Under the pieces are notes generated by a model that was not told where the DNA came from, ran no database searches, and saw only the letters and a list, made by a program, of their open reading frames with translations. Made by a program: the position numbers and the translations under genes. A stretch of 39,958 nt of DNA from a virus: positions 1 to 39,958 of IMG/VR virus record IMGVR_UViG_3300003894_000002. One strand, written 5' to 3'. Position 1 is the first letter of the stretch. Each line of letters opens with the position of its first letter. Of this stretch, positions 2,533-24,430 are shown piece after piece.

Positions 2533-2784
2533 TTAGAACGGAACGTCGTCGTTCTCCGCCTTCTTCTCGAATGGCTCGCTGATGCTGACGTTCAGCATCT
2601 TCTTGCCGGTTTTGCTCTCCTTGTTCCAGCCGGCCAATCGCAACTCTTCGCCGCGCTCGATGCGGCCGATGAGGCTTTTGTCGATCAGGATGGGTCCGCT
2701 CCAGTCAGGCTGCGCGTCACGTTCTTTTCGGTCGTTGACGAACAGGGTGCCGGTGTTGGGTTTTCTCTCGTAGGTGTTATTCAT
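2533..2784 (-). CDS. SSB-like small protein with acidic tail
   Basis: This 83-aa protein has the pattern TGTLFVNDRKERDAQPDWSG, then a beta-rich middle and LAGWNKESKTGKKMLNVSIS, seen in small phage and bacterial proteins of the DUF736 type. It ends DDVPF, the acidic-hydrophobic tip used by single-stranded DNA-binding proteins to recruit partners. It overlaps the exonuclease gene by eight bases. Context and tail suggest it binds ssDNA or recruits recombination and replication enzymes. OB-fold membership is inferred, and it is shorter than a standard SSB. Confidence 0.6.
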   Translation of the reverse strand: MNNTYERKPNTGTLFVNDRKERDAQPDWSGPILIDKSLIGRIERGEELRLAGWNKESKTGKKMLNVSISEPFEKKAENDDVPF

Positions 2785-3577
2785 TGATTTTCTCCGGTGT
2801 GTATTTGTTGATATGCTGCCACAGTTTCAGTGTCAGGTTGAACGTCTCCAGTTCGTGGCTGACTGAATCCGCTTTGTGGTAAATGGTGATGAACTCCCCA
2901 GGCTCATGCGCGTTTATGACGACGTTTGCCACACGTTCGGCGCCCAATACCTTGCCGTAGGCTGCCAGTTGCGCGGTCCACTCTGGGTAGACCTGTGGTT
3001 TTTTCCACTTCCCCTTCGCATCCTTTCGCAGCTGTTTGGTTTTAAAATCGAACAGCGTCTTGACTCCGTCCTGGTCAACTGCGAACAGGTCGGCGCGGCC
3101 GGCGTAACCATCGCCGACGACGACGGCCTCCTGGCTGATCACCTCCTTGACGTTGTCCGCAAACCACTGGCGAGCGAACGGTATGTAGGGTTGCACGCGC
3201 TCGTCGCAGACGATGTTTTCGTAACCATCGCCGACGTCCTCGATCATTTTGTGGACGGCGGTGCCGAACTCAGCTGCACGCTGCGTGACCTCGTCACTCT
3301 CCTGGGCGATTCGCCGTCCCCAGTCCTCGTCTGTTTCGTTCTCCTGCCGCTCCGATGTGATCGCGGCCAGGATGGCCATGTCTTTGATCCAGGTCGTCAG
3401 CGCCGGCTTGGCCTTGATTCCCAGAACATTGGTGACACTGGGCAGCAAGTTCAGTTTGCGGCAATCGGCGATGGTCGTGTTCCGCTCGCGGCCGTTTTTT
3501 CCGATCACCGTGTGCATCGGCTCGCCGGCCCTGGTGTAGTAGTGACTGCCGCCACCTCGTTTTCCAAACATGCTCAT
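2777..3577 (-). CDS. RecB/Cas4-type PD-(D/E)XK exonuclease
   Basis: This 266-aa nuclease would resect DNA ends to give the ssDNA used by the annealing protein. Visible motifs are GTAVHKMIE (His109), the catalytic Asp of YAGRADLF (Asp163), the D-x-K motif in LFDFKTKQ (Asp177, Lys179) and the QLAAYG motif (203-208) characteristic of RecB/Cas4-like nucleases. No cysteine cluster for an iron-sulphur centre is apparent. The start at 3577 has GGAGGG upstream and overlaps the preceding stop by ATGA. With its neighbours it forms a Red-like module. Confidence 0.85.
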   Translation of the reverse strand: MSMFGKRGGGSHYYTRAGEPMHTVIGKNGRERNTTIADCRKLNLLPSVTNVLGIKAKPALTTWIKDMAILAAITSERQENETDEDWGRRIAQESDEVTQRAAEFGTAVHKMIEDVGDGYENIVCDERVQPYIPFARQWFADNVKEVISQEAVVVGDGYAGRADLFAVDQDGVKTLFDFKTKQLRKDAKGKWKKPQVYPEWTAQLAAYGKVLGAERVANVVINAHEPGEFITIYHKADSVSHELETFNLTLKLWQHINKYTPEKINE

Positions 3578-5326: not shown

Positions 5327-6427
5327 CTATGGTCGGATTTCCCAGTAGCGCCTGGCATCGCTCGGCCTAACAACCGCACGATAGTGGTTGTAGAGCATGG
5401 TCAGGTTGCCGCTGTGTCCCAGCATCATCGCCGTCTTTCCGGCGTCGTCATGCATGGCGACATGGTTGCTCGCCGCCGTGTGGCGCAGACCGTTGTGGAC
5501 CGGCCGCACGCCGCTGCGGTCGAAGACGTCCTTGATGCGGCGCTTGTAGTTGACCTGGCCTAGGTCGCTGCCCTCGCAGGCGCGTAGCCATGCGACCAGG
5601 TTAGCGCTCATTTTGACGATGCGCCTCTGGCGCCGCACCTTGCCGATGACGGACAGCTCGCCGGCATCGAGGTCGATCCGGTCCCAGGAGAACCTAGCTG
5701 GGTCGTCGACCTCAGCTGTCCGCAGGCCGGCGAAGGCCTGGACGGCCAGCCTGGCACACATTCCCTTGTCGGTCTCCAGGGCGGCTCTAAGAAGATCCTC
5801 CACCTCTCCTGTGGAGTAGACCTCCACCTCGGCAGCGTTCTGCTTGCGTTTCTCTAAGGTCTCGGCCGCGTTCGAGTTGATGTGACCTTGCTTGCGGTGC
5901 CAGTTCAAAAACTGCCCCAGCACGGTGATGGTTTTATTCCACAGGCAGACCGACGCCTGCGACAAATTATTGTCCAGGTAAGCCTGGAGCATTCTTTTGT
6001 CAACGTCGGCGAGTTTGACGCCCTGGTGGGCGTCGAGAAAGCGCCCCAAGATCCAGCGCAAGCTTTTAATAGAGACGTCCTGTAACCCTGCCTTGTAGCG
6101 GCTGTCAATGTATGCGTCGTAAGCCTCCTCGAGGCTGAGTGTCGTTGCCGGCCGGTCGGCCAGGTGGCGCACGTAGTGCTCGACAGCCTGGGTCAGCTCG
6201 AACCCTCCCTGGCTGCACATGTCCAGGCAGCGCACGATCTCGGCCTGCCGCACCGGCGAAACGCCGGACAGCAGGTTGACTGCCTGCTGGCGCTCGCCCT
6301 GACGGCCGCGTACAAAGGCGTCGGCATCGCGACGATTTTTGAACCGCCGCCGAGTCTCCTTGCCACCGGCGTAGTCGCGCACCTCCCAACGAGGTGCGCC
6401 GTTGTAGGTGATTTCGTGGACAGTCAC
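5327..6427 (-). CDS. int: Tyrosine-recombinase integrase
   Basis: This 366-aa integrase should recombine attP with a host tRNA-Thr gene. Catalytic-domain motifs are AFAGLRTAEV (Arg236), HNGLRHT (His311, Arg315), LGHS (His338) and the nucleophile in LYNHYRAV (Tyr349). Residues about 95-190 match the core-binding SAM-like domain, and the first 55 resemble an arm-binding beta domain. GTG at 6427 is the chosen start: GGGAGGTGG lies six bases upstream and it overlaps the previous stop (ATGTGA). A longer ATG start at 6487 would lie inside the upstream gene. It is in the early leftward operon, about 1.2 kb from attP. Confidence 0.92.
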   Translation of the reverse strand: MTVHEITYNGAPRWEVRDYAGGKETRRRFKNRRDADAFVRGRQGERQQAVNLLSGVSPVRQAEIVRCLDMCSQGGFELTQAVEHYVRHLADRPATTLSLEEAYDAYIDSRYKAGLQDVSIKSLRWILGRFLDAHQGVKLADVDKRMLQAYLDNNLSQASVCLWNKTITVLGQFLNWHRKQGHINSNAAETLEKRKQNAAEVEVYSTGEVEDLLRAALETDKGMCARLAVQAFAGLRTAEVDDPARFSWDRIDLDAGELSVIGKVRRQRRIVKMSANLVAWLRACEGSDLGQVNYKRRIKDVFDRSGVRPVHNGLRHTAASNHVAMHDDAGKTAMMLGHSGNLTMLYNHYRAVVRPSDARRYWEIRP

Positions 6428-6774
6428 ATTCCACCTCCCTCGGTGTGGCGCATAGTCCACAGCCAGTTGAGTAACCTGGCCTGACAAGTTTCATCCCTGT
6501 CGCGCAGATCGTTGCGGTGGACAACCTCCAGGTCCATGTCGACTAGCGGCTGCAATGCAGCCAAAATTTCCTGGGCGTCATCGCGGCTCCAGTAGACGGA
6601 GCCGCTGTTCCACGTCGCCGAGAAGTTAAAGTTGTCACCAATGCGGTGCAGGCAGCTGGAGGTTCCGTCGACCGCGACGGTGTAGCCCTTGCCGACCATC
6701 GCCGGCACGTTGCGGTCGCTCCGCGCCTCGCGAATGGCGCGGATGCATTTTTTGATCATTTGTTTCTGTTCCAT
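6424..6774 (-). CDS. 116-aa hypothetical protein upstream of int
   Basis: The start MEQKQMIKKCIRAIREARSD follows the leader CGAACAACAACAAC, without a Shine-Dalgarno site. The N-terminus is a basic helix. The middle has beta-like GKGYTVAVDGTSSC and FNFSATWNSGSVYWSRDDA, and a helical C-terminus ends EGGGM, encoded by the integrase ribosome site. No family is recognised. It is coupled to the integrase by overlap. Confidence 0.6.
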   Translation of the reverse strand: MEQKQMIKKCIRAIREARSDRNVPAMVGKGYTVAVDGTSSCLHRIGDNFNFSATWNSGSVYWSRDDAQEILAALQPLVDMDLEVVHRNDLRDRDETCQARLLNWLWTMRHTEGGGM

Positions 6775-8183: not shown

Positions 8184-8465
8184 TTACGCACAGTAGCGAC
8201 GGACAGCCTCGCGCAATTCAGACTCGGTGCCGGACTCGGCCAGGCGCAGGAGCTTCTGGTGCTGGTCCTGGAGAGTCAGTGCGTAGGTCACCTGGTCGAG
8301 CGCCTCGTCCAGGATGTTCCTCGCCTGGGGCTTCAGATACAGCAGACCACCATGTTCTCGTTGGCCGATGGAATATTTTCGGACAATGGCGCTGCGTGCC
8401 TGGTCAGCGATCAACTCAGCGTGATCGTCTGCTAGCGCCTGGACGCCTTTCTCGTTCGTCGTCAT
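8184..8465 (-). CDS. 93-aa helical protein, possibly dATP/dGTP diphosphohydrolase-like
   Basis: MTTNEKGVQALADDHAELIA is followed by RKYSIGQREHGGLLYLKP and a helix with LDEALDQVTYAL. The KYxxGQxEHGG followed by EALDxVxY pattern recalls small phage all-alpha NTP-pyrophosphohydrolase-like proteins (DUF5664/MazG-type). A full metal-binding set is not obvious in this short protein, so enzymatic activity is uncertain. The start overlaps the end of the giant gene by 50 bases and has no clear ribosome site. Confidence 0.5.
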   Translation of the reverse strand: MTTNEKGVQALADDHAELIADQARSAIVRKYSIGQREHGGLLYLKPQARNILDEALDQVTYALTLQDQHQKLLRLAESGTESELREAVRRYCA

Positions 8466-11400
8466 GGGGGGACAATTTTGGACGAACGGACGGCGTTTGG
8501 AACGCGCCACTGTCGACACGTACCGACGTTGGACCGACATGCGGTTTTCGCGATGGCTTCGACGACGGCTTGTATGAGAAATCCTCGTATTCGCCGAACA
8601 CAGCGTTTTTGACAAACACGGTGCCGCCGGCACTAAATGCGGCATCTCCACCGACAACAGGGCGGAATGTTTTTCGGTCGTAAAAATACGAATGACGCTT
8701 TGGATTCATCCCAACCTGCGTCCATGCCTCAATGCCGTCAGGCACCTCGCTGACTTTTTTGTATAGCCCCTCGACCACAGCGATTGTGCTTTTTGTTTTC
8801 TCCCCCTGCATTATCGCATAGGCAAACTTCTCGTTGACTACGAAATTAAGCGGACCCTCAACCAGAGCGTAGTTGTCGTAGCCAAGTGGAGGGCCGGCAT
8901 TTTTTAAGGGGTTGGGGTGATCGTGAACCGAAACAACGTAGATGCCATTGCGTGTGAACGCTGGTATGTCAATTCGCAGGCCGACCCTTCGCCCATCCTC
9001 GACGTTGTTTTTAGCCAGCCCCATTGCTCGCTTGTTTTTGTCCAAAGCCTTCAGTGCCTCAGCCTCCGTCGGAATGTTTCGCATCTTGCCCTTCAACACA
9101 GGCAAAGGCACTGACCGTATAACCGGACCAGCGTCTCCCTGAATGGCTCCCATTCGGCCAGAAGGCTTGTAGTTTATGTCATTACTCGCCTCGTTGAAGC
9201 GCTCACTCAAAGGAATGACGTTGCCTGCGTCGTCGCGAATGATGGGGTCGGCGGATTTCACCTGGCTGGGGTCGAATATCGTGTAGACCTCCGCGATGTC
9301 AGGATCACTACCACGCTCGATGACCACACCGTCAAAGCCCTGGTCTTTGAAATCTGACACATCATCGGCGTCCCATTCAAAATGACGACCGTCCACCTCA
9401 GCGTTAAGGAGGTAAGGATTGGTAATCTTCAGGTAGGCAGATTCGGTTCGAGCACCCCAGGACTTTGTCCACTTTTTAACGTCCGAGAAGTATGCTGGCG
9501 TTTCAAACGTATCGAACTTGGGAGCATCCGTTGAATGAAACACCGGACCGTAATTATACCCTGCCGCCTTCGCCGCCTCATCGACCATCCTCTGCGCCGT
9601 CTCCATGTCGTCAGCCTCAATCGCTCGCATGTAGTCAGCGTCTGAAGGTTTCATGTTCATGTCCGATGAACGCAGTTCATCCCTGGTTTTACCAAGGTCC
9701 GCCAGGTAGACATCGTCGAGCAGCTGGTCACTGACTCCGCCATACAGGTCGTAGGTCAACTCGACCATGTTACGAATCTCCGTAAGCATGTTGTCCTCAC
9801 CGATCACCGATCTCAATTCTCGAAGGATTTCATCCAAGGAACGTTTTTCGCCTCCGGTGAAATGCTGTTTCAATGGCAGCAACGGATTGACTTTGATTCC
9901 ACGATCATCTCGCGCATCGATAGCATCGCGTTGAGTTGGCAGCGATGCGACATAGTCCGGCAGCGTGTAGTTCACCAGAAAATCGAGCCGGTCTCTCAGG
10001 TTTTTGTATTCACTCTCGTAGCGAGCGACACTATCCGCATCACCACGTTTGCGGCTGTTGGCGATCATTCTCAGGTGGCTGTCAGTGCTGAACCCAAACA
10101 GCATACGACGGACAAGCGTGTTTACGTGAAATCGTCGGTCAAAATGTTTAGGCATCGCGCCAATTTCACGTAAAGGCATTTCAGTGAATTCGACAACCGC
10201 CTGGTCAAAATCCCTGGCTACCTCCTCGGCCGCGCTAGGCTTGTATCTTGGTAGCCCTTCGTCCTGGATCTTTTGCCTGGTCGGCTCTGGGATATCAACG
10301 TAGTGCGCCTTGATTTTTCCGCCGTCGAGAGACGCTGTCCTGGCTTTGAGTTTCAGTCGCTTGAGCACCTTCGATTTCGGCAACATGCCGTCGTAGAATC
10401 CTTTCATACCCTCGCCACCAATGGTCAGCTCGTCGCCCTTGATGGAATGGACATGACGCATGTCTTCGGTGTTGACTATTTTGTCAGCGATGGCTTTGCC
10501 AAACATCTGTGACAGGCTTCGCGGTTTTCCGTCAATAGGTGACGTTGACATTTGGTCCGAATGATTGAACTCACCGGAAAACACCTTGTCTGTGCGACCT
10601 TCCCCCTGCCACGCATCGACGTAGATCCGGCCGGCCTGGCCGTAGTAGTAGCTGATCTGTCCGACCTTTTGACGCATGTCAGCCTCGTAGCGGAGCACTT
10701 GGTCGAACCCTCGCGTCCAGGCTATAGCGTCGTAGCCCATGGCTGATGCCATGGTCAATGCGCGGCGCAGTGTCAGGTCATGCCATGAAGACTTGAACGG
10801 AGCGTCCGGCACCGCTTCATTCCGTGGATTTAAAGAAAAACTTTTCTTGTAGCCATGCTCTCGGCCTGCCTGATGCCAGTCACTCTGGATCTCCTCAATG
10901 AACATGACGCGCTCACCGTTCGGTCCTCTGCGGTCGTCGAGTCTCATGTGTGCCAGGACATTCGACTCCTCGTAGTGACCACTTTCAAACGGTTCATTGA
11001 CCATTTGTTTCGCATCCCAAGTTTTTCCTAGTGTCCCCCCATGCTTTGTGGCTATCCGATGCAGCTGCCGGAAGTCGTCCAGGTTCATACCGCGAAACAA
11101 ATACTCATTTCCGCCATCCCTCACTACCGACATAACGCGTCCATCATCCAGACGGTCGACCAAACCGCTCTCTTTCGCCTCCTTCAGAAAAAGCGCCTCG
11201 CCCTCAACAGTCCTGAATTCCCCATATGTCGCATCTGTGACGTTCTCGAATCTCTCCGGCAGGCGTAGCAACACCTCGCGGTAGTTCACTGTGTCACCGA
11301 ACGTGTATTCTATGTATTTCGGAGCCAATTCCTCGCCGCCCTCAACTACAGTCATGCCTGCATCCTCAGCCATTTTTGTCCGTGCGGCAGTGTTGGCCTC

Positions 11401-14400
11401 TTCAAATTCTCCAAGTACCACATAGTAAGCACTGTTACTCGCGTCATTTTCAGTACGGTAATCTCGTCCGTAAATCTCGTTGTTCCTGTATGCATCGTAA
11501 CCGTTCAATGTTTTTTTGAACTCGAACTGCCTGTCTACAATTCTGTTTGCCACAATAGAACCGAGAGCGTCGCTGTCCTCTTTTGCAATTTCCCTGCTGC
11601 TTACAAAATCTTCATGCTTCATCACCTCCTCGATGACGATTTGGTTGGCCTCCAGGTGTTCGACAATTTCCTCCTGGGTAACTCGCTTCTTACCTTTGAG
11701 AAATTTATCCAGCCCCAGGTCGCGCAACTCCTCATCCTTGACTCCGTCACGCTTGAACGCAGCGATCATCTGATCACCGGTGCCGACCTTCTGCTTCAGC
11801 TTGCCGGCTGATCGTTCGGCCTGGCTGTACAGGTTCATCTCACCGGTCGAGGCCTTGGCGTGCAGCATCGCCGATTTGATTCCAGCATGCAGTGTGTTCT
11901 CGTCGTTCACCTTGTCCCACACGGCGTGATGCGTAAGCGTCTGGTAGTATGGCTGAAGGTTCTTCGGCATCTTCAATGCCATCTTCTCCTGCCGCTGCAT
12001 GTGCTGTTTCAGCCGGTCCTTCGTCACGGCGATCTTTTTGCCGTAGTGCAATTTTTGCTGTCGGCTGTCCAGGGTTGGAATGTCTCCGCGCCCCATGAGC
12101 GTAGCCCAGAAGCCGGTCTTGGAAGCGCCGATGCCCTGGATTTTTTCTTCCGTCCAGTCGATGAATTTATCGGTCGGCATGTTGTCCAGGGCCGAGACCA
12201 ACTCGTTTGCAATAGGAGAGAACTGCTCGGCTGCGAGTCGCATAAACTCGAGTTGCTTGTTCTGGAAACCGAAACCTCTGAACCGTTCGACCACTCCCCT
12301 GGCTGCACGTTCATCGAACTTACCCTTCTCAGCTGCGTCCAGGTAAGCTTGTCCGTCCTCGGTTTTCTCGAGCAGCATGGCGAACACATCCTCTGGTCGC
12401 TGTTTGCCTGAATCGATCTCCGCCTCCGGCCAATATTTCGTCACCGTCTTCGGTAGCACTGCCTGCCGTTGGAATGACGACTGAACGATTGTGTAGGCCT
12501 TGACCGCGTCCCTGGCGGTCACACCCTTGTCGTTCATCGCTCGCATGAACGCTCCGAATTTAGCGGCGCCGCTTGATGCAGGCAGCCGGTCCATGCCTAC
12601 CTCTTTTTTTACGGCGGCAATGCTTCGCGGTTTAACGGTGGAGGCCTTGAAGTTGGCTCGACCCTGAGCCTCGGCATATGGTTTGAGCAGGTCGGCCTTC
12701 GGCTGGGCTGCCAACAGCGGCTGGGCGCCGATTGCCGCCTTCAGTTTGTCGCCGCCGACTTTTTTCAGGTTGGCATAGATCGACTTGTCCGACGTCAGGT
12801 GCCTGACGTTGTGGAATTTTTTGGTGTAGCCAATGGGCTTACCAAACACGGCCCCCTTGTAGGCGTAGTGCCTGGCGGTCGTCGCCGGCCGCGTGAGGTC
12901 CATCTCGAAAACGCCGATAATGTCGCCATACTCGACGGAGTTGTACAGCGGATCGTTGAAGCGGTCGGCCATCGAGTCGAGGTCCATGCCGACGGATTTC
13001 AAAACCTCTGCGTTGAGTTCAATGCCCTTGTTTACGTTTGAAAGTTTTTTCGCCAGAAAGCCGGTGAAGGCATCGTAGCGGATGCCATCCCTGCCGGCAT
13101 TCTTTTTGAAGGAATCGAAATCGTGAATGTTGTCATACTTCGCAACCTTCGTGAGAACTTCCTTTCGGTTCCCCTTGTAGTTCTTCACCGAGTCGATGGT
13201 GAACTTGAACAATTCGTCCACCTGTTTTTTGGTGAACACACCAGACGCAATTGCCTGGTCAAAGTTCTGTCCGATAAGCTCAATGGATGTTCGGTTCCCC
13301 AGCGAGGAACGCCGGTGAGTCGCAGCCACCCCAACCAACACAGATTTCGCGTTTGGAAAATACTTCAGAGCGCGGTCGATGAATTTCTGAGCATTATCTA
13401 TGTCCGTAAACGCCCAGACCTCACCTGTCAGACCGTTGTAGAGGTCCATGTAACCTATGCCGCCCTCGCCCTGGATGCTACCCACTACCTGGCGCCCAGT
13501 CGGACCTACGAGAATGTCGCCTACTCGCATCAGGTCAGCCGGCAGCATGAGCATGTTCCGGTCCCTGTGATCATACAGGTTGACCTTACCTGACGCCTTC
13601 ATGTTGGCCAGGATCTCACCGCTCAGTTTCACTGGGCGCTCCTGGTTGGGGTTGTCAATTTTTACGACGCCATCACCGACCTTGACCGATGGGTCGGCGG
13701 CTGTGGGTTTGAGATTCCGTTGGCCGGCGAAATAGGCCTCCTCCGAGAATGGCATGACCTCACCGGTAGCCTCCCACCTGGTCACGCGATCTAGCCGGTA
13801 ATTTTTAATGGCATAGTCCTTGTCACGCTTCGCTGCGTAACCCTTGCGCGGCGAACGGACGCCAGTCCCCCTGGCGGCGGATGGGACAGTGCCAAGAACC
13901 TCGTAGAAGAAATTTCGCTCCTCAACGCTCCCCAGGGCGGAAGCCGTATCGGCTGCCTCTTCGCCCTTCATCAGTTCCTGGAGGTATACATCACGAAACC
14001 GCTCGAAAGCCTGTTCGTCGGTCGCGAACAGGTTGTTTTTGTCTGCCTTGCGTGCCTTCGCGATGCGCCGGCGGATCGCTTTGACGTCCAGGGCGCGGAA
14101 ATAGATACCACCCTCCTTGCTCATTTTCAGAGCAAAGGGAAGCAGTGTTTTGTCGTCCCATCCGGCAGTCCGGTAGACTCGCCGGTTCGGATTCTTGTGA
14201 CCGCTCTTTGTCGCTGTCCAATAAATCGATGACAGGACAGTGCCGGCGTTTCCGTCCAGGCTTTCAACCAATGCCTTCGACAGCTCGAGCTGCTCCGGCG
14301 CCAACACATCTCCGATTGCATCCAGGATTTTTTTACGTTGCTCGGAATCGCTCTGCTTGATGGCTTTACCGATGTTGGCTGCGCCATCCTCGTCACCGTC

Positions 14401-16818
14401 AATTAGGATTGATTCATCGACGCCGAGTTCCTCGAGCTTCTTGCTGATGCGCTCATGCTTGGCAGAGTCTGCCTGCTCGACCTCCGTCGGAGTCATCACG
14501 CGGCCGACCTTGCCGCCCTGGGCTGTGAAAATTGAACGCAGGCCGACGTCGTAAAGTTGCTGGAAGTCTCCCTGTTTTTTTCCGGTCAGAGTGACCTTGT
14601 TTTTTCCGCCATCATCGGACGACTTGGTTGTTTGGTATAACTCTCGAACGAAGCGGTCCAGCGTCTTGTTTCGGTAACGGTTGGCCGGCAAACCCTGGTC
14701 GGTTTTTTTGCCTTTGCCAAAGCCGGTCAACACATCCTCCGACGCCTCCGCAAAACGGAACGCATCGTCGAACGTGTCACGCATGCGTCCCTCGAACATC
14801 CGGCGGACATGGCCCAGCATCATTCCGACGGCGCTCTTGTGTTGTTTGGGAGCCAGGCTGTTGTTGTAGCGCAGCCTTCCACGCCCCAGGATTCCACCTC
14901 GGTTGAACAGCGAGTAGGCCGCGTAGTAGGCCATGAACTCGTTTGCGATCTCAGCCCTGGCCTGCCTGACCTGTTCGGTCACCGGACCGTCAGTGAACGC
15001 CTCCGCGATGTATCGGTTCCACAACTCCGGCTGCCGGACGTTGAGTCCGTATTGTGTGGCGAACCGTTTGAGGGCGCCCTGATCGATGACAGGGTTGGTC
15101 AGCTGTTTTCCGTCCGGCGTTGTCTCGCCGAATAAATGTGCGACAGCCATGGACAACTGCTGCTCACTCGAGACAGTCTTCAGCATGACATGCGCCAACT
15201 CATGCGCCGGCGTGTCGGCCTGCGCCCTGGCTATGTCGATGACGATGGTCGGAGTCTCACCGTCCAGGTAGTACACACCCTCGAAGCCTTTCGAGCCGCC
15301 AACCTTTTTCAGGCTCAACGGCAGGTCCATGGTCTGGCTGTCGATATACATCAGCCGCCCACCGTTCGCCGTCAGGGCATGGTGGACGTCAGCCATGAGT
15401 GTCATGGCGCCTCTAATTCCATCCTTCGGATTCGCACCCTGGCCGGCCTCCATGTACTGCCCCAGGCGCCTTGCCAGCTCTCGCTGGTTGCTCACCTCAA
15501 ACTGGGCCGGCGTGCTGGACTCGCGGCCCATGAGTCGGCCGGAGAATCCCTCGGTCACCTGGATCCGCATGGCGTCAGGCAGTGCCTCGAGGTAGGTGTC
15601 AAAATCACCGACGATCCGCGCCTGCTCGACCGCGCCGGTCAGGTGGCTGAGTGTGCGACCGACGCCAGCCATGACGCCGCCCATTGCCACGCCTCCTCCT
15701 ACGCCACCAGCGAGGCCTCTGTCGCCGTCGTAGACGTAACCCATGCCACCACCTATCAGGGCGCCCTGCGCGGCACCCAGGGCCATTCTGGGGGCCAAAT
15801 CGAGGGCTGTGTCGCCGCCGGCAAACAGCGCCGCCCTGGCTAGCTGCTGGCTGACCATAGATCCAGCCAGGTTGCCGTAGGCCTGGTTGAGGATGGACAT
15901 TCGGCTCGGCTGAGTGAGCGCCGCCTTGCCGGCCGTCTCGAGGATCTCGCCGGTCGTCTTGGCTGCGGCCGCGCCGGCGAGGATTTTCGCCGTCGTCGCG
16001 ATGACCGGACTGCTGGCCGTCATGCCCAGGCCGGCAGCTGCGGTCTGGATGGGTTTCTTCAGACCGCTGGCAGCCTCAATTCCAGTGGCGACCTTGTCAG
16101 CGGCGCCAGTGATGCCACCACCTGCCTTTTTCAAGCCGGCGCCCAGCTTGATCGACCCCTTCGCTGCAAGCGTCTCGGCTGCCGTTGACATTTTTGCAAC
16201 GGCTCCAATCCTGGATATTTTTCCGAACTGCCCCAGGAACGGAACGAGGCTTGTAACGTCAGCGACAGACGCTACGCCTTGGACAAATTTATTGTTCACG
16301 TACTCCTTGGGGACAACGAGAGTGTCGTCGCCGGCCAGGAGTTCCATCGAGCGCTTGCCGAACTCACGCGCCTCGAGAAACTGGTTGTATTCATCCTCCA
16401 GGTTGATGTTGTCCAGCGCCCAGGATTTCAAACCGAACGCGATGCTGTCTGGGTTTTGCGACTGAGCCACCATCTCCCACATTCCGCGAGACCCCTGGGC
16501 AAACCCTTCGACGACGCCTGGGAAACTCTCGAGCTGCAATGAGTTTTTCAGGCCGGCGCCAACCGTGTTCAGCATGTGTCGAAAACCTGTCGCCATGGTT
16601 TCCTTCCAGTCAGTCTCACGTTGGCCGTTTCGCATCCACTCGCTGTATGTTGCGTAGTCGTTGAACGTCGGCACGTAGTCAACGTCCTCCTGGAGACGTT
16701 GCTCAACATCCTGGCCGCGCACAGGAAACTCCCTGTCGACGACCTCGCGAATCTCCTCGTCAGTAACCCCTTGGGGAAAATCAATCTCCCCTCGGCCAGC
16801 GATAGTTACGGTTGGCAT
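8416..16818 (-). CDS. Giant 2800-aa polyvalent/internal virion protein with ART-like domain
   Basis: This is the largest gene, over a fifth of the genome, and last of the virion block. Residues about 185-400 contain Ala/Gly-rich hydrophobic segments (SSPVIATTAKILAGAAAAK; GGVGGGVAMGGVMAGVG) that could cross a membrane. TPAHELAHVML (HELAH 539-543) is a zinc-metalloprotease motif. A charged middle of several domains follows. FIEEIQSDWHQAGREHGY (SDWHQ 1979-1983) is a motif of large phage polyvalent proteins. Residues about 2395-2545 (GPVFHSTDAPKFDTF, YFSD, FDGVVIERG, YTIFDPSQVKS) resemble the ADP-ribosyltransferase domain of that class. YKPS tetrapeptides separate the modules. It follows two putative internal virion proteins, so it is probably packaged and injected to counter host defence or modify host targets. 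Catalytic activity of each domain is inferred. Confidence 0.85.
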   Translation of the reverse strand: MPTVTIAGRGEIDFPQGVTDEEIREVVDREFPVRGQDVEQRLQEDVDYVPTFNDYATYSEWMRNGQRETDWKETMATGFRHMLNTVGAGLKNSLQLESFPGVVEGFAQGSRGMWEMVAQSQNPDSIAFGLKSWALDNINLEDEYNQFLEAREFGKRSMELLAGDDTLVVPKEYVNNKFVQGVASVADVTSLVPFLGQFGKISRIGAVAKMSTAAETLAAKGSIKLGAGLKKAGGGITGAADKVATGIEAASGLKKPIQTAAAGLGMTASSPVIATTAKILAGAAAAKTTGEILETAGKAALTQPSRMSILNQAYGNLAGSMVSQQLARAALFAGGDTALDLAPRMALGAAQGALIGGGMGYVYDGDRGLAGGVGGGVAMGGVMAGVGRTLSHLTGAVEQARIVGDFDTYLEALPDAMRIQVTEGFSGRLMGRESSTPAQFEVSNQRELARRLGQYMEAGQGANPKDGIRGAMTLMADVHHALTANGGRLMYIDSQTMDLPLSLKKVGGSKGFEGVYYLDGETPTIVIDIARAQADTPAHELAHVMLKTVSSEQQLSMAVAHLFGETTPDGKQLTNPVIDQGALKRFATQYGLNVRQPELWNRYIAEAFTDGPVTEQVRQARAEIANEFMAYYAAYSLFNRGGILGRGRLRYNNSLAPKQHKSAVGMMLGHVRRMFEGRMRDTFDDAFRFAEASEDVLTGFGKGKKTDQGLPANRYRNKTLDRFVRELYQTTKSSDDGGKNKVTLTGKKQGDFQQLYDVGLRSIFTAQGGKVGRVMTPTEVEQADSAKHERISKKLEELGVDESILIDGDEDGAANIGKAIKQSDSEQRKKILDAIGDVLAPEQLELSKALVESLDGNAGTVLSSIYWTATKSGHKNPNRRVYRTAGWDDKTLLPFALKMSKEGGIYFRALDVKAIRRRIAKARKADKNNLFATDEQAFERFRDVYLQELMKGEEAADTASALGSVEERNFFYEVLGTVPSAARGTGVRSPRKGYAAKRDKDYAIKNYRLDRVTRWEATGEVMPFSEEAYFAGQRNLKPTAADPSVKVGDGVVKIDNPNQERPVKLSGEILANMKASGKVNLYDHRDRNMLMLPADLMRVGDILVGPTGRQVVGSIQGEGGIGYMDLYNGLTGEVWAFTDIDNAQKFIDRALKYFPNAKSVLVGVAATHRRSSLGNRTSIELIGQNFDQAIASGVFTKKQVDELFKFTIDSVKNYKGNRKEVLTKVAKYDNIHDFDSFKKNAGRDGIRYDAFTGFLAKKLSNVNKGIELNAEVLKSVGMDLDSMADRFNDPLYNSVEYGDIIGVFEMDLTRPATTARHYAYKGAVFGKPIGYTKKFHNVRHLTSDKSIYANLKKVGGDKLKAAIGAQPLLAAQPKADLLKPYAEAQGRANFKASTVKPRSIAAVKKEVGMDRLPASSGAAKFGAFMRAMNDKGVTARDAVKAYTIVQSSFQRQAVLPKTVTKYWPEAEIDSGKQRPEDVFAMLLEKTEDGQAYLDAAEKGKFDERAARGVVERFRGFGFQNKQLEFMRLAAEQFSPIANELVSALDNMPTDKFIDWTEEKIQGIGASKTGFWATLMGRGDIPTLDSRQQKLHYGKKIAVTKDRLKQHMQRQEKMALKMPKNLQPYYQTLTHHAVWDKVNDENTLHAGIKSAMLHAKASTGEMNLYSQAERSAGKLKQKVGTGDQMIAAFKRDGVKDEELRDLGLDKFLKGKKRVTQEEIVEHLEANQIVIEEVMKHEDFVSSREIAKEDSDALGSIVANRIVDRQFEFKKTLNGYDAYRNNEIYGRDYRTENDASNSAYYVVLGEFEEANTAARTKMAEDAGMTVVEGGEELAPKYIEYTFGDTVNYREVLLRLPERFENVTDATYGEFRTVEGEALFLKEAKESGLVDRLDDGRVMSVVRDGGNEYLFRGMNLDDFRQLHRIATKHGGTLGKTWDAKQMVNEPFESGHYEESNVLAHMRLDDRRGPNGERVMFIEEIQSDWHQAGREHGYKKSFSLNPRNEAVPDAPFKSSWHDLTLRRALTMASAMGYDAIAWTRGFDQVLRYEADMRQKVGQISYYYGQAGRIYVDAWQGEGRTDKVFSGEFNHSDQMSTSPIDGKPRSLSQMFGKAIADKIVNTEDMRHVHSIKGDELTIGGEGMKGFYDGMLPKSKVLKRLKLKARTASLDGGKIKAHYVDIPEPTRQKIQDEGLPRYKPSAAEEVARDFDQAVVEFTEMPLREIGAMPKHFDRRFHVNTLVRRMLFGFSTDSHLRMIANSRKRGDADSVARYESEYKNLRDRLDFLVNYTLPDYVASLPTQRDAIDARDDRGIKVNPLLPLKQHFTGGEKRSLDEILRELRSVIGEDNMLTEIRNMVELTYDLYGGVSDQLLDDVYLADLGKTRDELRSSDMNMKPSDADYMRAIEADDMETAQRMVDEAAKAAGYNYGPVFHSTDAPKFDTFETPAYFSDVKKWTKSWGARTESAYLKITNPYLLNAEVDGRHFEWDADDVSDFKDQGFDGVVIERGSDPDIAEVYTIFDPSQVKSADPIIRDDAGNVIPLSERFNEASNDINYKPSGRMGAIQGDAGPVIRSVPLPVLKGKMRNIPTEAEALKALDKNKRAMGLAKNNVEDGRRVGLRIDIPAFTRNGIYVVSVHDHPNPLKNAGPPLGYDNYALVEGPLNFVVNEKFAYAIMQGEKTKSTIAVVEGLYKKVSEVPDGIEAWTQVGMNPKRHSYFYDRKTFRPVVGGDAAFSAGGTVFVKNAVFGEYEDFSYKPSSKPSRKPHVGPTSVRVDSGAFQTPSVRPKLSPHDDERERRPGASRRSR

Positions 16819-20025: not shown

Positions 20026-21608
20026 TAGTAGCTGTTGAGGATTAAGCTGATGAATTTCCAGTCGTATGCGGAGCCGTGGCTGTGCTCGTAGGCCAAAACA
20101 AACTCGCAGCGTGACGGCGTCTCGTTGGTTGGTACTGATCGAGAAACGTAGTAGCGGTGTGCGACAGCCGATCCAAAATATGCCATGTTGGATTTGCTGG
20201 AATCTTGCCAGCCGTTTGGAATGTAGCCACTGGCTTGAATGACGTAGTTGTTGATCGTCGAGTTGAAAACCAGGACATAGCTCCCCTTGTCCTTGCTCTT
20301 GTCAGGGAACAAGCGCCCCCCAATCACACCCCCACATGTCGTCAACTGACGGTTGACCACTAGTGACAGGGTGCTGTGCGTTGAACTCGCAACAACAGGA
20401 TTGTCACCACTCGAGGCGTCTGACTCGGATGTGTGCAGGGTGGCATTGTTGCCGTCGATGCGAATGAAATAAACCGTCATGGCATCGAGACCAGCCGGAA
20501 CAGTTTCTGTTAAAATGACCGCATCGCCGGTGCTGAACCCACTGTATCCGTTGGTGTCCACCAACGTCGTAGGGTTGCCGTCAGCGTCGTTGATGATGCT
20601 ACCAGGCTCGGCATGGGTGTGCTCACTCGTCTCCGTTGAGATCGATACGTCAGTCGTTTTTTGTATCACGGCCGGCGTCACGTTGACGGCCTGGTAGCTG
20701 GGTGCGACGGTCGGTCCGTTCGAGGTCAAAACCTGTCCGGCAGTTCCGGCAGGTTTGATGTTTGCAATTGGGACAATGGTCAGGCTGTCGGAATCGTCGT
20801 CGACGGTCGCGACCAGGATGTCTGAGTTTTCTGAACCTGACGCCGAGACCAGAGCTACCTGGGAAGCGGATTCATCGGAGGCGCCACCGCTGATTGTTCC
20901 GATCTGGGCGTTGTCGGCGGAATTGTTTTGGAGTTGTTCGCCGTCTTGGAAAAATCCATCGATGTTGACCAGGGTCAACGTGGTGTCCGATATCGAGTTG
21001 ACGATGCCAGTTGCCGTGCTGGTCGCGCCCCTCACCGTGTCGCCGACAGTGACAGCTGCACTGGGGTCGCTTGCGGCGTAGGTCACCTGGTTGGGCTGCT
21101 TATTGATCCTGCTTGCATCCTGGACAGCGTAGTTGTCTGGGCTGCTGATGCCCTTGAAATGCAGTTTACTGGCTGACGTATCGACCTTGACGATTTCGAT
21201 GACATGGCTCGTTGGGTCGGACCCCTGTCCGACAACCTTGACCCTCTCTCCGACCAGGCCGGACAGTGCGCTGCCGTCGCTGTAGGAAAGGCTTCTCGCC
21301 CTGGACAAGGCGACGTCGCCAGCAATCTCATGCGCCTTGGCTGCTCCATCGGCATCGCCAGCGATAACCAGGCTGTCCGCCACTCCCTCAAGTTTAGACA
21401 AGCCAATGGCGGCGTCAGCAGCCACCTTTGCGTTCGTCACAGCCGCGTCCTTGATTTTCGCCGTCTCAACGGCGTCCGAGGCAATGTCGGCAGCCTCGAC
21501 CGTGCCATTGATGTCAACAGTCGGCGCCCCTAGCGCATTGAGTTTTTTCAACCCAACAACCTCGTCGGCGTTGAAGATTGCATTCGGTTTTACGGTCGCC
21601 TTGATCAT
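20025..21608 (-). CDS. Second tail fibre-like protein (527 aa)
   Basis: The N-terminus has repeated short motifs typical of trimeric fibres (DIASDAVETAKIKDAAVTNAKVAAD). The middle is Ser/Thr/Asp-rich and beta-structured (ATGIVNSISDTTLTLVNIDG; GQVLTSNGPTVAPSYQ), and the C-terminal 110 residues look globular (GYIPNGWQDSSKSNMAYFGS; HRYYVSRSVPTNE). It is predicted to be a fibre or receptor-binding protein on the outside of the tail. The start overlaps the stop of the nozzle gene by ATGA. Confidence 0.7.
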   Translation of the reverse strand: MIKATVKPNAIFNADEVVGLKKLNALGAPTVDINGTVEAADIASDAVETAKIKDAAVTNAKVAADAAIGLSKLEGVADSLVIAGDADGAAKAHEIAGDVALSRARSLSYSDGSALSGLVGERVKVVGQGSDPTSHVIEIVKVDTSASKLHFKGISSPDNYAVQDASRINKQPNQVTYAASDPSAAVTVGDTVRGATSTATGIVNSISDTTLTLVNIDGFFQDGEQLQNNSADNAQIGTISGGASDESASQVALVSASGSENSDILVATVDDDSDSLTIVPIANIKPAGTAGQVLTSNGPTVAPSYQAVNVTPAVIQKTTDVSISTETSEHTHAEPGSIINDADGNPTTLVDTNGYSGFSTGDAVILTETVPAGLDAMTVYFIRIDGNNATLHTSESDASSGDNPVVASSTHSTLSLVVNRQLTTCGGVIGGRLFPDKSKDKGSYVLVFNSTINNYVIQASGYIPNGWQDSSKSNMAYFGSAVAHRYYVSRSVPTNETPSRCEFVLAYEHSHGSAYDWKFISLILNSY

Positions 21609-24430
21609 AGTTTGCTTACGGTTTTAACGTCGTCAGCCGTCGCGCTGATTGACGCGGATTTGATGCGGACGTCTCCGCCGGTGTTCTCAATTTTCAGCTG
21701 CACGCTGTTGCCCCTCTTGCGTAGCGGTTTGCGTGTGCTCTGGCTTTGTTTTGCGTCCAGGGCCAGGCCTGACCGAACAGAAAACAGGTCGGAGATTTTG
21801 ACGCTGTAATCTTCGCGCCCCTCGACTCGGTGATCGTCGTTCGAGTTTGTCAGGTCATAGTCTGCGGCATCGAACGGCCGGACGTATTGCGTGCGATTCG
21901 CTTGCAACTTGTCGGTCAATTGCGTGTCGTCGTTCACACCATCACCCTTGGCAGTGATGCTGACAGTCGCTGCCCTCTGCTGGTAGTTGACGTCGACTCG
22001 GTGGAATCGTTTGTAGCCGGCGTTGGTCCCATGGTAGCCCCTGGTGAGGACAGTCATTGCCACCGGCTCCGGCGTAGGTATCGGCTCATACCGGTCGGTC
22101 ACCTCGCGCACATGGTCATCGACCGGACAGAAACTTTCGTCGTCGTAGAGGTAGAAAAATCCACGGCTCGACATGAAAAACAACCTGGTTGCGTTTGCGA
22201 ATTTACAGGTAACAAAATCGACAACGGCGCCGTCGGCAAACTTGTCCACCGATACCCACGCACGCAGTTTCAGGTCGTAAACCAAAATGACGTTGTTCTC
22301 CTCCTCGCTGAGACCCTCCATGTTGAGCGTCAGGTTGAGGTTGGATCCGCCGACCTGGAGGTTGTAGCTGTCTCCGTTTTCAACCGCTGTCAGTCCGTTG
22401 GCTACCAGGCTTCGATACAGTGCCTGGAAGGAAATCGGAGCGGCGACATACAGTTTGTTGTCATGGAACGCGCATCGGACTTTTTCAATCGCTGCGTAGT
22501 TGAGCTGGTCAAATACAGGTTTGATCGGATCGCTGATGGGGACGTCGAGTCCCTGGATCTGTCCCTGTTCGGTGATCGACAACAACCTCAGTCCGTCGTG
22601 CGCCAGGAATGCTATGTCGCGGCCGATCCGACAGACGCTGCGCGGAGCGATGCACCCATAGGCTCGAGTCATTTCCTCGAGCGTAATCTGGCTGAGGTCG
22701 CCCTGGACGTTTCGCGCCAGGTAAACAGAATGCTCTTTGAACAGCGCTACTGTCGCCTGGTCGACGTTGGCGATGGCAGTGAGTTTGTCACTGCTGCCCT
22801 GGTTGATTCTGTAGACGTTTCTAATTGCGTCGTATCGGTGTGCTGCGAGCAGGTCTGAGGCGGCGACCTGGTCGCGGCCGTGGATCGCGAACATTCGATT
22901 GCCCAGGTAGATTCCACTGGCACTATTGGGCATCGGATCTGTGCCGTCGGCCGGATGGTCTATGTCTGAAATTTTCTCGAAACCAACATGCGGCTCGGAC
23001 AACACCAATTGCTCCTGGTCGCTGCCTCGGAGCAAAAACAGACGGTCGAATGCCTGGACGAACTGCGCCTGTTTTCCGACGGTCTCTCCGTCAGGTAGAG
23101 GAACGAGGCGTGCGGTGTTGTCAGGGTAGACTCGGTAGACCTGGGTCTCGGTAGCCACCATGACAACCTCAGCCTCGAGGGGGTCGCGAAACTTCCCAAC
23201 TGCCACCGGTTTTTCAAACGGCTGAACGTCGATCTCCGGCTCGTCGTAGCGGCGCAGCGTGTCTGGGTCTGGTGAGTAAAACGTGACGTCAGAACTGGTC
23301 AGAGACAGGCTGGCGTCCGCGAGCAGCTGTCGTCTCGTCTCGTCCAGTGCGTCCTGGTTGAATTGCTGCTGGCCGGCTCGGTAGCTGTTGTCGATCCCAG
23401 GAATCGCGCCATGCGCCCTCACTACCAGTCCAGCCAGGACAGGTGTTGTGCCGTCGATGAAAAACAATGGACTGCCACTGTCTCCGACCAACACTCCGCG
23501 CCAGAAACCGTCATCGGTTCCAGTGTAAGCCGGCGCCGTCATCGCCCTCTCAGCGCTGAGGATCTGCGACGACTTGGTCGACATTTTTTCGTAGTCACCA
23601 AAAAATGACGGCTGGCTCGCATATTGGTCGCTGTGACCAAAGATCATCGCCTGGCCGTATTGGTTTACCTGAACGACCGGCACAGCCCCCTTGTTGGTCA
23701 GCAGTGGCCATTCGGTTCCGACGGTCTTCGCGATTTCCTTACGGCTAAATATGGCTGCCCTCGTGATGCTGCTGTCCACATCGGCGTTGAGCAAGTGCAA
23801 CTTGATGTCGTGACCAGGGACTGCCCTGGCGGCGGTTATGGTGTACTCAAACTGAGTTCCGCTGACGTTGACAAATTTGATCTTGGTGCCAATCGGCACA
23901 GCGCTGTGAGAGCAGCCGACAACAATGCGGTCGGCAATCAGCGTCATCCGCATCTGCTGCGCGTGAGTGTGCGAGAATGATCCGTCGGCGTTGAGTGTCT
24001 GGTGATCGTGCGCCACGACGACGCTGGTGAAATCCACTGTACTGGCCCAGCAGCTCGAGTTGTAAACGGCGCCGGCCAGGTTGTTGTCGTAGGTGTCAAG
24101 GACAGCAGGCAGTCGCAGCGGCTCTCCGTCGCTGCCCAGCATGAGGCTGTTCACCATGCCGAATGTTCCGGCAGCAGTGTCGCCGGCAGCAGGAACGCTT
24201 AGGTCTTTGACCAGGTTCCAGACCGAGTCGAAATAATGGTCTCGAGTGGTAGGCTTTTGGCTGCGGTCACTGGTGACGCCCCAGTGCATGCACATGGCGC
24301 CGGCTCGAGGCTCGATGACTCCATAGTCCAGGCGAATGTTTTCGGCGTAGGCAAGGAAGCCAGGCGCGAGGTTGCTCGGATCGACGGTCATGTCGATCCC
24401 TGCGAAGCCGCTGTCACCGTCAACTTCCAT
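21605..24430 (-). CDS. Tail nozzle (tubular B-like) protein with inserted trypsin-like protease domain
   Basis: This 941-aa protein starts like a short-tail nozzle (PSNLAPGFLAYAENIRLDYG) and from about residue 390 continues as its propeller: FEKPVAVGKFRDPLEAEVVM, FDRLFLLRG, GNRMFAIHGRDQVAASD, YGCIAPRSVCRIGRDIAFLA. Between about 60 and 385 lies an extra domain with chymotrypsin-type motifs. These are His175 in RIVVGCSHSA, Asp208 in GHDIKLHLL and Ser318 in GDSGSP followed by TPVLAGLVV. The three motifs are in the order and strand context of a serine-protease triad. It would form the distal tail tube and could cleave a virion or host-surface protein. The nozzle call rests on motif similarity, and protease activity is inferred. 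Confidence 0.8.
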   Translation of the reverse strand: MEVDGDSGFAGIDMTVDPSNLAPGFLAYAENIRLDYGVIEPRAGAMCMHWGVTSDRSQKPTTRDHYFDSVWNLVKDLSVPAAGDTAAGTFGMVNSLMLGSDGEPLRLPAVLDTYDNNLAGAVYNSSCWASTVDFTSVVVAHDHQTLNADGSFSHTHAQQMRMTLIADRIVVGCSHSAVPIGTKIKFVNVSGTQFEYTITAARAVPGHDIKLHLLNADVDSSITRAAIFSRKEIAKTVGTEWPLLTNKGAVPVVQVNQYGQAMIFGHSDQYASQPSFFGDYEKMSTKSSQILSAERAMTAPAYTGTDDGFWRGVLVGDSGSPLFFIDGTTPVLAGLVVRAHGAIPGIDNSYRAGQQQFNQDALDETRRQLLADASLSLTSSDVTFYSPDPDTLRRYDEPEIDVQPFEKPVAVGKFRDPLEAEVVMVATETQVYRVYPDNTARLVPLPDGETVGKQAQFVQAFDRLFLLRGSDQEQLVLSEPHVGFEKISDIDHPADGTDPMPNSASGIYLGNRMFAIHGRDQVAASDLLAAHRYDAIRNVYRINQGSSDKLTAIANVDQATVALFKEHSVYLARNVQGDLSQITLEEMTRAYGCIAPRSVCRIGRDIAFLAHDGLRLLSITEQGQIQGLDVPISDPIKPVFDQLNYAAIEKVRCAFHDNKLYVAAPISFQALYRSLVANGLTAVENGDSYNLQVGGSNLNLTLNMEGLSEEENNVILVYDLKLRAWVSVDKFADGAVVDFVTCKFANATRLFFMSSRGFFYLYDDESFCPVDDHVREVTDRYEPIPTPEPVAMTVLTRGYHGTNAGYKRFHRVDVNYQQRAATVSITAKGDGVNDDTQLTDKLQANRTQYVRPFDAADYDLTNSNDDHRVEGREDYSVKISDLFSVRSGLALDAKQSQSTRKPLRKRGNSVQLKIENTGGDVRIKSASISATADDVKTVSKL

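Follow-up and report, generated by a model that had tools for sequence, protein, structure and literature searches.

For the most part, the enzymes that virions are known to carry for breaching host surfaces act on sugars or peptidoglycan. In tailspike depolymerases and virion lysins, an enzyme domain is placed on a part of the virion and serves to pass a surface layer. The tail nozzle of phage P22, gp10, is a protein of 472 aa without an enzyme domain, and T7 gp12 and SU10 gp17 are the counterparts by function of the nozzle described here. The first 45 residues of T7 gp12 supply strands to the platform adjoining the adaptor (PMC6702177). In SU10 gp17, blade 1 is the point of the propeller that the chain reaches from the platform, and this point lies off the tail axis (PMC9509320). 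The nozzle considered here, with 941 aa, differs from P22 gp10 in what appears to be a complete trypsin-fold serine endopeptidase domain inserted after residue 50. The domain is comparable to those of tailspike depolymerases and virion lysins in its placement on a virion part, and differs from them in an unrelated fold and in a predicted action on proteins, not glycans. A literature search that covered few subscription journals found no report of a trypsin-type domain in a nozzle. What is new here is the unnamed family to which the domain belongs and the nozzle architecture, the latter seen in one record only.

The nozzle gene and its genomic setting

The window, which is the whole stretch of DNA analysed, is an IMG/VR virus contig of 39,958 bases from a short-tailed phage. 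Its late genes all lie on one strand and encode a terminase, a portal, a scaffold-like protein, the major capsid protein (MCP), a tail-fibre-like protein and the nozzle. The nozzle or head-closure (Hc3-like) gene, at 21605..24430 (-), follows the MCP gene on its downstream side. Besides the matches given below, it matches a nozzle profile that itself includes the insert-free window sequence. On re-reading, the open reading frame, strand and length given in a preliminary description of this DNA were exact, as were the three motifs on which it had based a protease, SHSA (starting at residue 174, with H175), GHDIKLHLL (206, with D208) and GDSGSP (316, with S318).

Through the portal gene, IMG/VR phages were found whose nozzle genes match residues 500-925, and GenBank entries named 'head closure' and 'phage stabilization protein' are weak matches to the same residues. 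The PHROG matches of the protein are phrog_5107 ('amidase'), phrog_511 and phrog_578, the last of these weak (E 0.019). Relatives without the insert are far better matches to phrog_578, 'head closure Hc3' (L163 7.6e-7, L164 2.7e-7, C75C1 1.1e-10), and P22 gp10 itself belongs to PHROG 578. A direct profile comparison with P22 gp10 alone (hhalign) gave E 0.46, no better than shuffles. The protein shares with gp10 the position of its gene downstream of the MCP gene and, through its insert-free homologues, the PHROG; on these sequence matches it is taken as a P22-gp10-like tail nozzle or head-closure protein, in agreement with the earlier naming of a nozzle. The 'amidase' phrog_5107 matches residues 549-644 of the window protein and, widely, other nozzle proteins, and its name is probably a carry-over from one annotation.

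Other genes of the window include a 2800-aa protein at 8416-16818 (-), which has no PHROG match and whose residues 2440-2524 resemble ART-PolyVal, an ADP-ribosyltransferase domain of polyvalent proteins, below threshold (Pfam PF18760, E 5.6e-6). An integrase-family gene lies at 5327-6487 (-), and at 2777-3577 (-) there is a gene of the exonuclease family that has Cas4-type matches as well, though weaker ones. Relatives of the portal, at most 31% identical along the greater part of the protein, were found in 14 of 388 Verrucomicrobiota genomes, the only phylum sampled. A terminase query gave no match. One Verrucomicrobiota genome with a portal relative has a nozzle of the same type that lacks the protease domain. 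On these portal relatives, sought in this one phylum, a Verrucomicrobiota host is plausible. The integrase-family gene together with the portal relatives in these genomes suggests a temperate lineage.

An insertion at a single site

A scan of IMG/VR with the nozzle alignment yielded 80 loci, two of which (L163 and L165) have a compact N-terminal part. L163 aligns through its residues 17-63 with residues 4-50 of the window protein (49% identity, E 1e-10) and then with residues 414-781 (32%, E 2e-57), so that 17 residues stand opposite 363 in the window. L165 aligns with residues 5-46 and then with residues 414-941 (28%, E 3e-51), and its gap holds 18 residues. Relative to both, the window thus carries some 350 additional residues, all at one site. 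The nozzle protein is thus divided into an N-terminal segment of residues 1-50 (24281..24430, -), an inserted segment of residues 51-413 (23192..24280, -), which is 346-349 residues longer than the matching loop of L163 and L165, and a C-terminal segment of residues 414-941 (21605..23191, -). Within the insert, the trypsin-fold serine peptidase domain covers residues ~113-386 (23273..24094, -), as delimited by the HMM envelope and the predicted structure. The preliminary description had placed the insert at residues 60-385, which comes close; the interruption is wider, at 51-413, and the trypsin-family homology runs from about 113 to 386. That the segment is inserted is borne out by the empty site in L163 and L165. 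This anatomy of a nozzle with an inserted domain can be regarded as nearly certain.

None of the open reading frames of the portal and nozzle loci carries the trypsin-like domain, and 77 complete homologous nozzles are among them. The protease-nozzle architecture is without recurrence because only one nozzle carries the domain. It was also supposed earlier that the protease may explain an unusual length of 941 aa. This length is not unusual, as the 77 complete homologous nozzles are mostly 940-1020 aa long and reach that size by other inserted material; most of them hold such material before the conserved core, partly FCCH-like or endosialidase-barrel-like. Length alone is thus no clue to the protease. 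The nozzles of L164, L169 and L210 have other inserted domains (E1_FCCH-like, endosialidase-barrel-like) right before the conserved core, so that there seem to be at least two places at which the nozzle protein is prone to insertions. The motif GHDIKLHLL was also considered as a homologous propeller strand like NGHDIYSPVRL of other nozzles and was rejected in that role; that strand of the other nozzles aligns by eye with FVQAFDRLFLLRG after the insert.

Since the architecture occurs in one record only, an assembly chimera of two phages has to be weighed. This is highly improbable: a single open frame spans both junctions, the GC content of the insert is like that of the rest of the gene (0.58 vs 0.56), the nozzle sequences on either side of the insert align collinearly with the same homologues, and the following gene starts so early that it overlaps the nozzle stop. 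Two in-frame false joins within one gene would be very unlikely.

Predicted fold and active site

AlphaFold2 with a 32-row alignment (A6) gave a model with a mean pLDDT of 67, core blocks at 86-96, loops below 50 and a pTM of 0.71, and its overall confidence is medium. The full protein without an alignment gave a pLDDT of 32 and no usable fold. The best PDB rows of a Foldseek search with the model were S1 peptidases, namely chymotrypsin, thrombin, protein C and elastase (E 4e-9), and VIA-align against tPA gave a DALI-scale Z of 17.6 and an rmsd of 3.0 A over 208 aligned residues. The best viral structural match was A0A6J7XEP5 (BFVD), an uncharacterised protein of 452 aa from an uncultured Caudovirales phage (E 2.7e-14, TMq 0.66). 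In addition, the A6 profile matched 56 PDB sequences, all named trypsin-family peptidases, with a best E of 0.005 and the triad in register. By prediction, the insert is thus shown to adopt the double beta-barrel chymotrypsin fold, which agrees with the trypsin-like domain claimed from the letters alone.

The domain resembles peptidase family S1 (MEROPS clan PA) in the double-barrel fold, the order His-Asp-Ser, the GDSGxP motif, the oxyanion Gly and Asp194. The predicted catalytic residues are His175 (codon 23906..23908, -; chymotrypsin His57), Asp208 (23807..23809, -; Asp102) and Ser318 (23477..23479, -; Ser195). The last lies within G316-D317-S318-G319-S320-P321, which supplies both the oxyanion Gly193 and GDSGxP. 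The domain differs from peptidase S1 in that no Asp stands at the naive position 189, which by counting is Gly312, and in that the Ser214 segment appears not to be kept. The position of Ser214-Trp215-Gly216 reads V337-R338-A339 by counting, in a loop of uncertain register. With Gly312 at 189 and Val-Arg-Ala at 214-216, trypsin-type specificity is not predicted, and the substrate cleft would differ. The domain is also internal, so that a free N terminus of the Ile16 type would need cleavage.

An uncatalogued trypsin-fold family

As a single sequence, the insert had no relative in Pfam, PDB-sequence (phmmer), phage tblastn or IMG/VR searches. The family was first reached with a 48-residue query around GDSGSPLF, which found 7 IMG/VR contigs encoding large proteins whose C-terminal 250 aa form a domain with the same motifs. 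Alignment searches then added a Didemnitutus MAG, 40 of the 388 Verrucomicrobiota genomes and 45 IMG/VR loci. The alignment used for the Verrucomicrobiota genomes had the window as one row, and the members from these genomes are therefore not wholly independent of it; the 45 IMG/VR loci were found without the window. The family is found in >50 IMG/VR loci and about 10% of the sampled Verrucomicrobiota genomes, and in the window the domain is present once. HMMs built without the window support the membership. The protein scores 86 bits (E 1.5e-25) against an HMM of mostly Verrucomicrobiota members and 68 bits (E 3e-20) against one of mostly phage members; the insert scores 68-89 bits against such HMMs, and the best of 1000 shuffles of the protein reached 7.8 and 4.3 bits.

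No family of Pfam, PHROG or NCBIfam was above threshold for the members scanned. Neither the window protein nor the insert had a Pfam match, and the member at L079 matched PF00089 at only E 0.15. Because the curated cut-off of PF00089 was not reached, the domain is filed in the S1 fold and PA clan and not in PF00089. The members carry the pattern NTxCWA...SPRHVLFAxHY...D...GDSGNP (e.g. L087, L073, L079 and L118-L157) and share with the window the triad and homology over ~250 residues. They differ from it in sequence, at 18-27% identity, and in architecture: on phage contigs the domain is usually C-terminal in an open reading frame of 300-1000 aa, and in the window it is an internal insert. The window sits on a long branch within this phage and Verrucomicrobiota family.

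The His/Asp/Ser triad proposed in the preliminary description is borne out by all 51 of the 51 members aligned, each of which has His, Asp and Ser opposite H175, D208 and S318. When A6 is taken without the window, its 31 rows share 38 conserved columns. The window has lost 19 of these, and H, D, DSG and P are kept along with a Gly at the oxyanion position. Such retention of the catalytic columns amid lost ones suggests that selection has held the active site. The oxyanion Gly is replaced in 9 members, by Tyr in 6 and by Gln, Met or Phe in the 3 others (e.g. L149, L152, L157), with His, Asp and Ser kept, and the activity of these members may be altered.

The trypsin fold could alternatively be a binding module only, with an adaptor or receptor-binding function and no catalysis. 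The Foldseek matches include Umb1 of the umbrella toxin particle, where a trypsin-type fold is used as an adaptor, and the Tyr at the oxyanion position of six members and the apparently divergent S1-pocket segment are consistent with such a module. This is nevertheless quite unlikely, as H, D and S are kept in all 51 members and in the window despite an identity of ~25% and the loss of half of the conserved columns. The domain is probably an active peptidase.

Settings of the domain in other phages and in bacteria

The proteins that carry the domain elsewhere belong to two settings. In phages, the domain-bearing frame of L120 has the N terminus of a long tail fibre (phrog_1699, E 7e-11), its neighbours are tail-fibre and virion genes, and the domain loci of L142 and L145 are near capsid and terminase genes. 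In Verrucomicrobiota, the domain ends large proteins, several of which have signal-peptide-like N termini and are apparently secreted. Two loci encode proteins of 1281 aa (L262:8412-12254, -) and 1899 aa (L257:5092-10788, +) with signal-peptide-like N termini and the protease domain at the end; the L262 protein has RCC1-like repeats, by eye. The tail-fibre setting of L120 and the apparently secreted type of the bacterial proteins suggest that the domain points outward from the particle or the cell.

These settings bear on whether the domain might be a morphogenesis enzyme, whose substrate, while the particle is assembled or at ejection, would be the nozzle or another virion protein of the phage and not a host protein. 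The protease domain does lie in a structural gene that adjoins large virion-protein candidates, such as the 2800-aa protein, and the late genes that were searched revealed no second protease. Against this, all sampled nozzle homologues lack the domain and presumably assemble without it, and the outward-pointing members on tail-fibre-type phage proteins and apparently secreted bacterial proteins speak for an outward-facing role. A morphogenesis enzyme is therefore considered unlikely.

Position on the virion and proposed role

By analogy with T7 gp12 and SU10 gp17, an insert after residue ~50 would stand at the junction of the platform and propeller blade 1, which probably places it on the upper, outward side of the nozzle, close to the fibre docks rather than at the distal tip. 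Contrary to this, the protease had been placed at the distal tail tube, a location that is doubtful and probably wrong in light of the same two structures (PMC6702177, PMC9509320). Because such nozzles are hexamers, each tail would bear six copies of the protease domain on its exterior. The domains, if catalytically active as predicted, would cleave envelope or surface proteins of the host during adsorption and penetration. The domain would thus be a protein-cutting counterpart of the tailspike polysaccharide depolymerases. As a whole, the explanation of a virion-displayed serine endopeptidase in the nozzle that acts on host surface proteins at entry is favoured with some reserve; for the substrate, a location on the host surface is rated at about even or slightly better.

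With a proteolytic domain as part of its nozzle, a phage would have a further way of entry, by cutting proteins, and the architecture indicates that a nozzle tolerates a complete enzyme between platform and propeller. It is tentatively proposed, at somewhat less than even likelihood, that phages of this type display members of the broad unrecognised trypsin-fold family on their virions as protein depolymerases, sometimes on fibres and here in the nozzle, which cut host protein layers at entry. Overall, recognition of the uncatalogued family would let annotators name many tail proteins that are at present 'hypothetical'.
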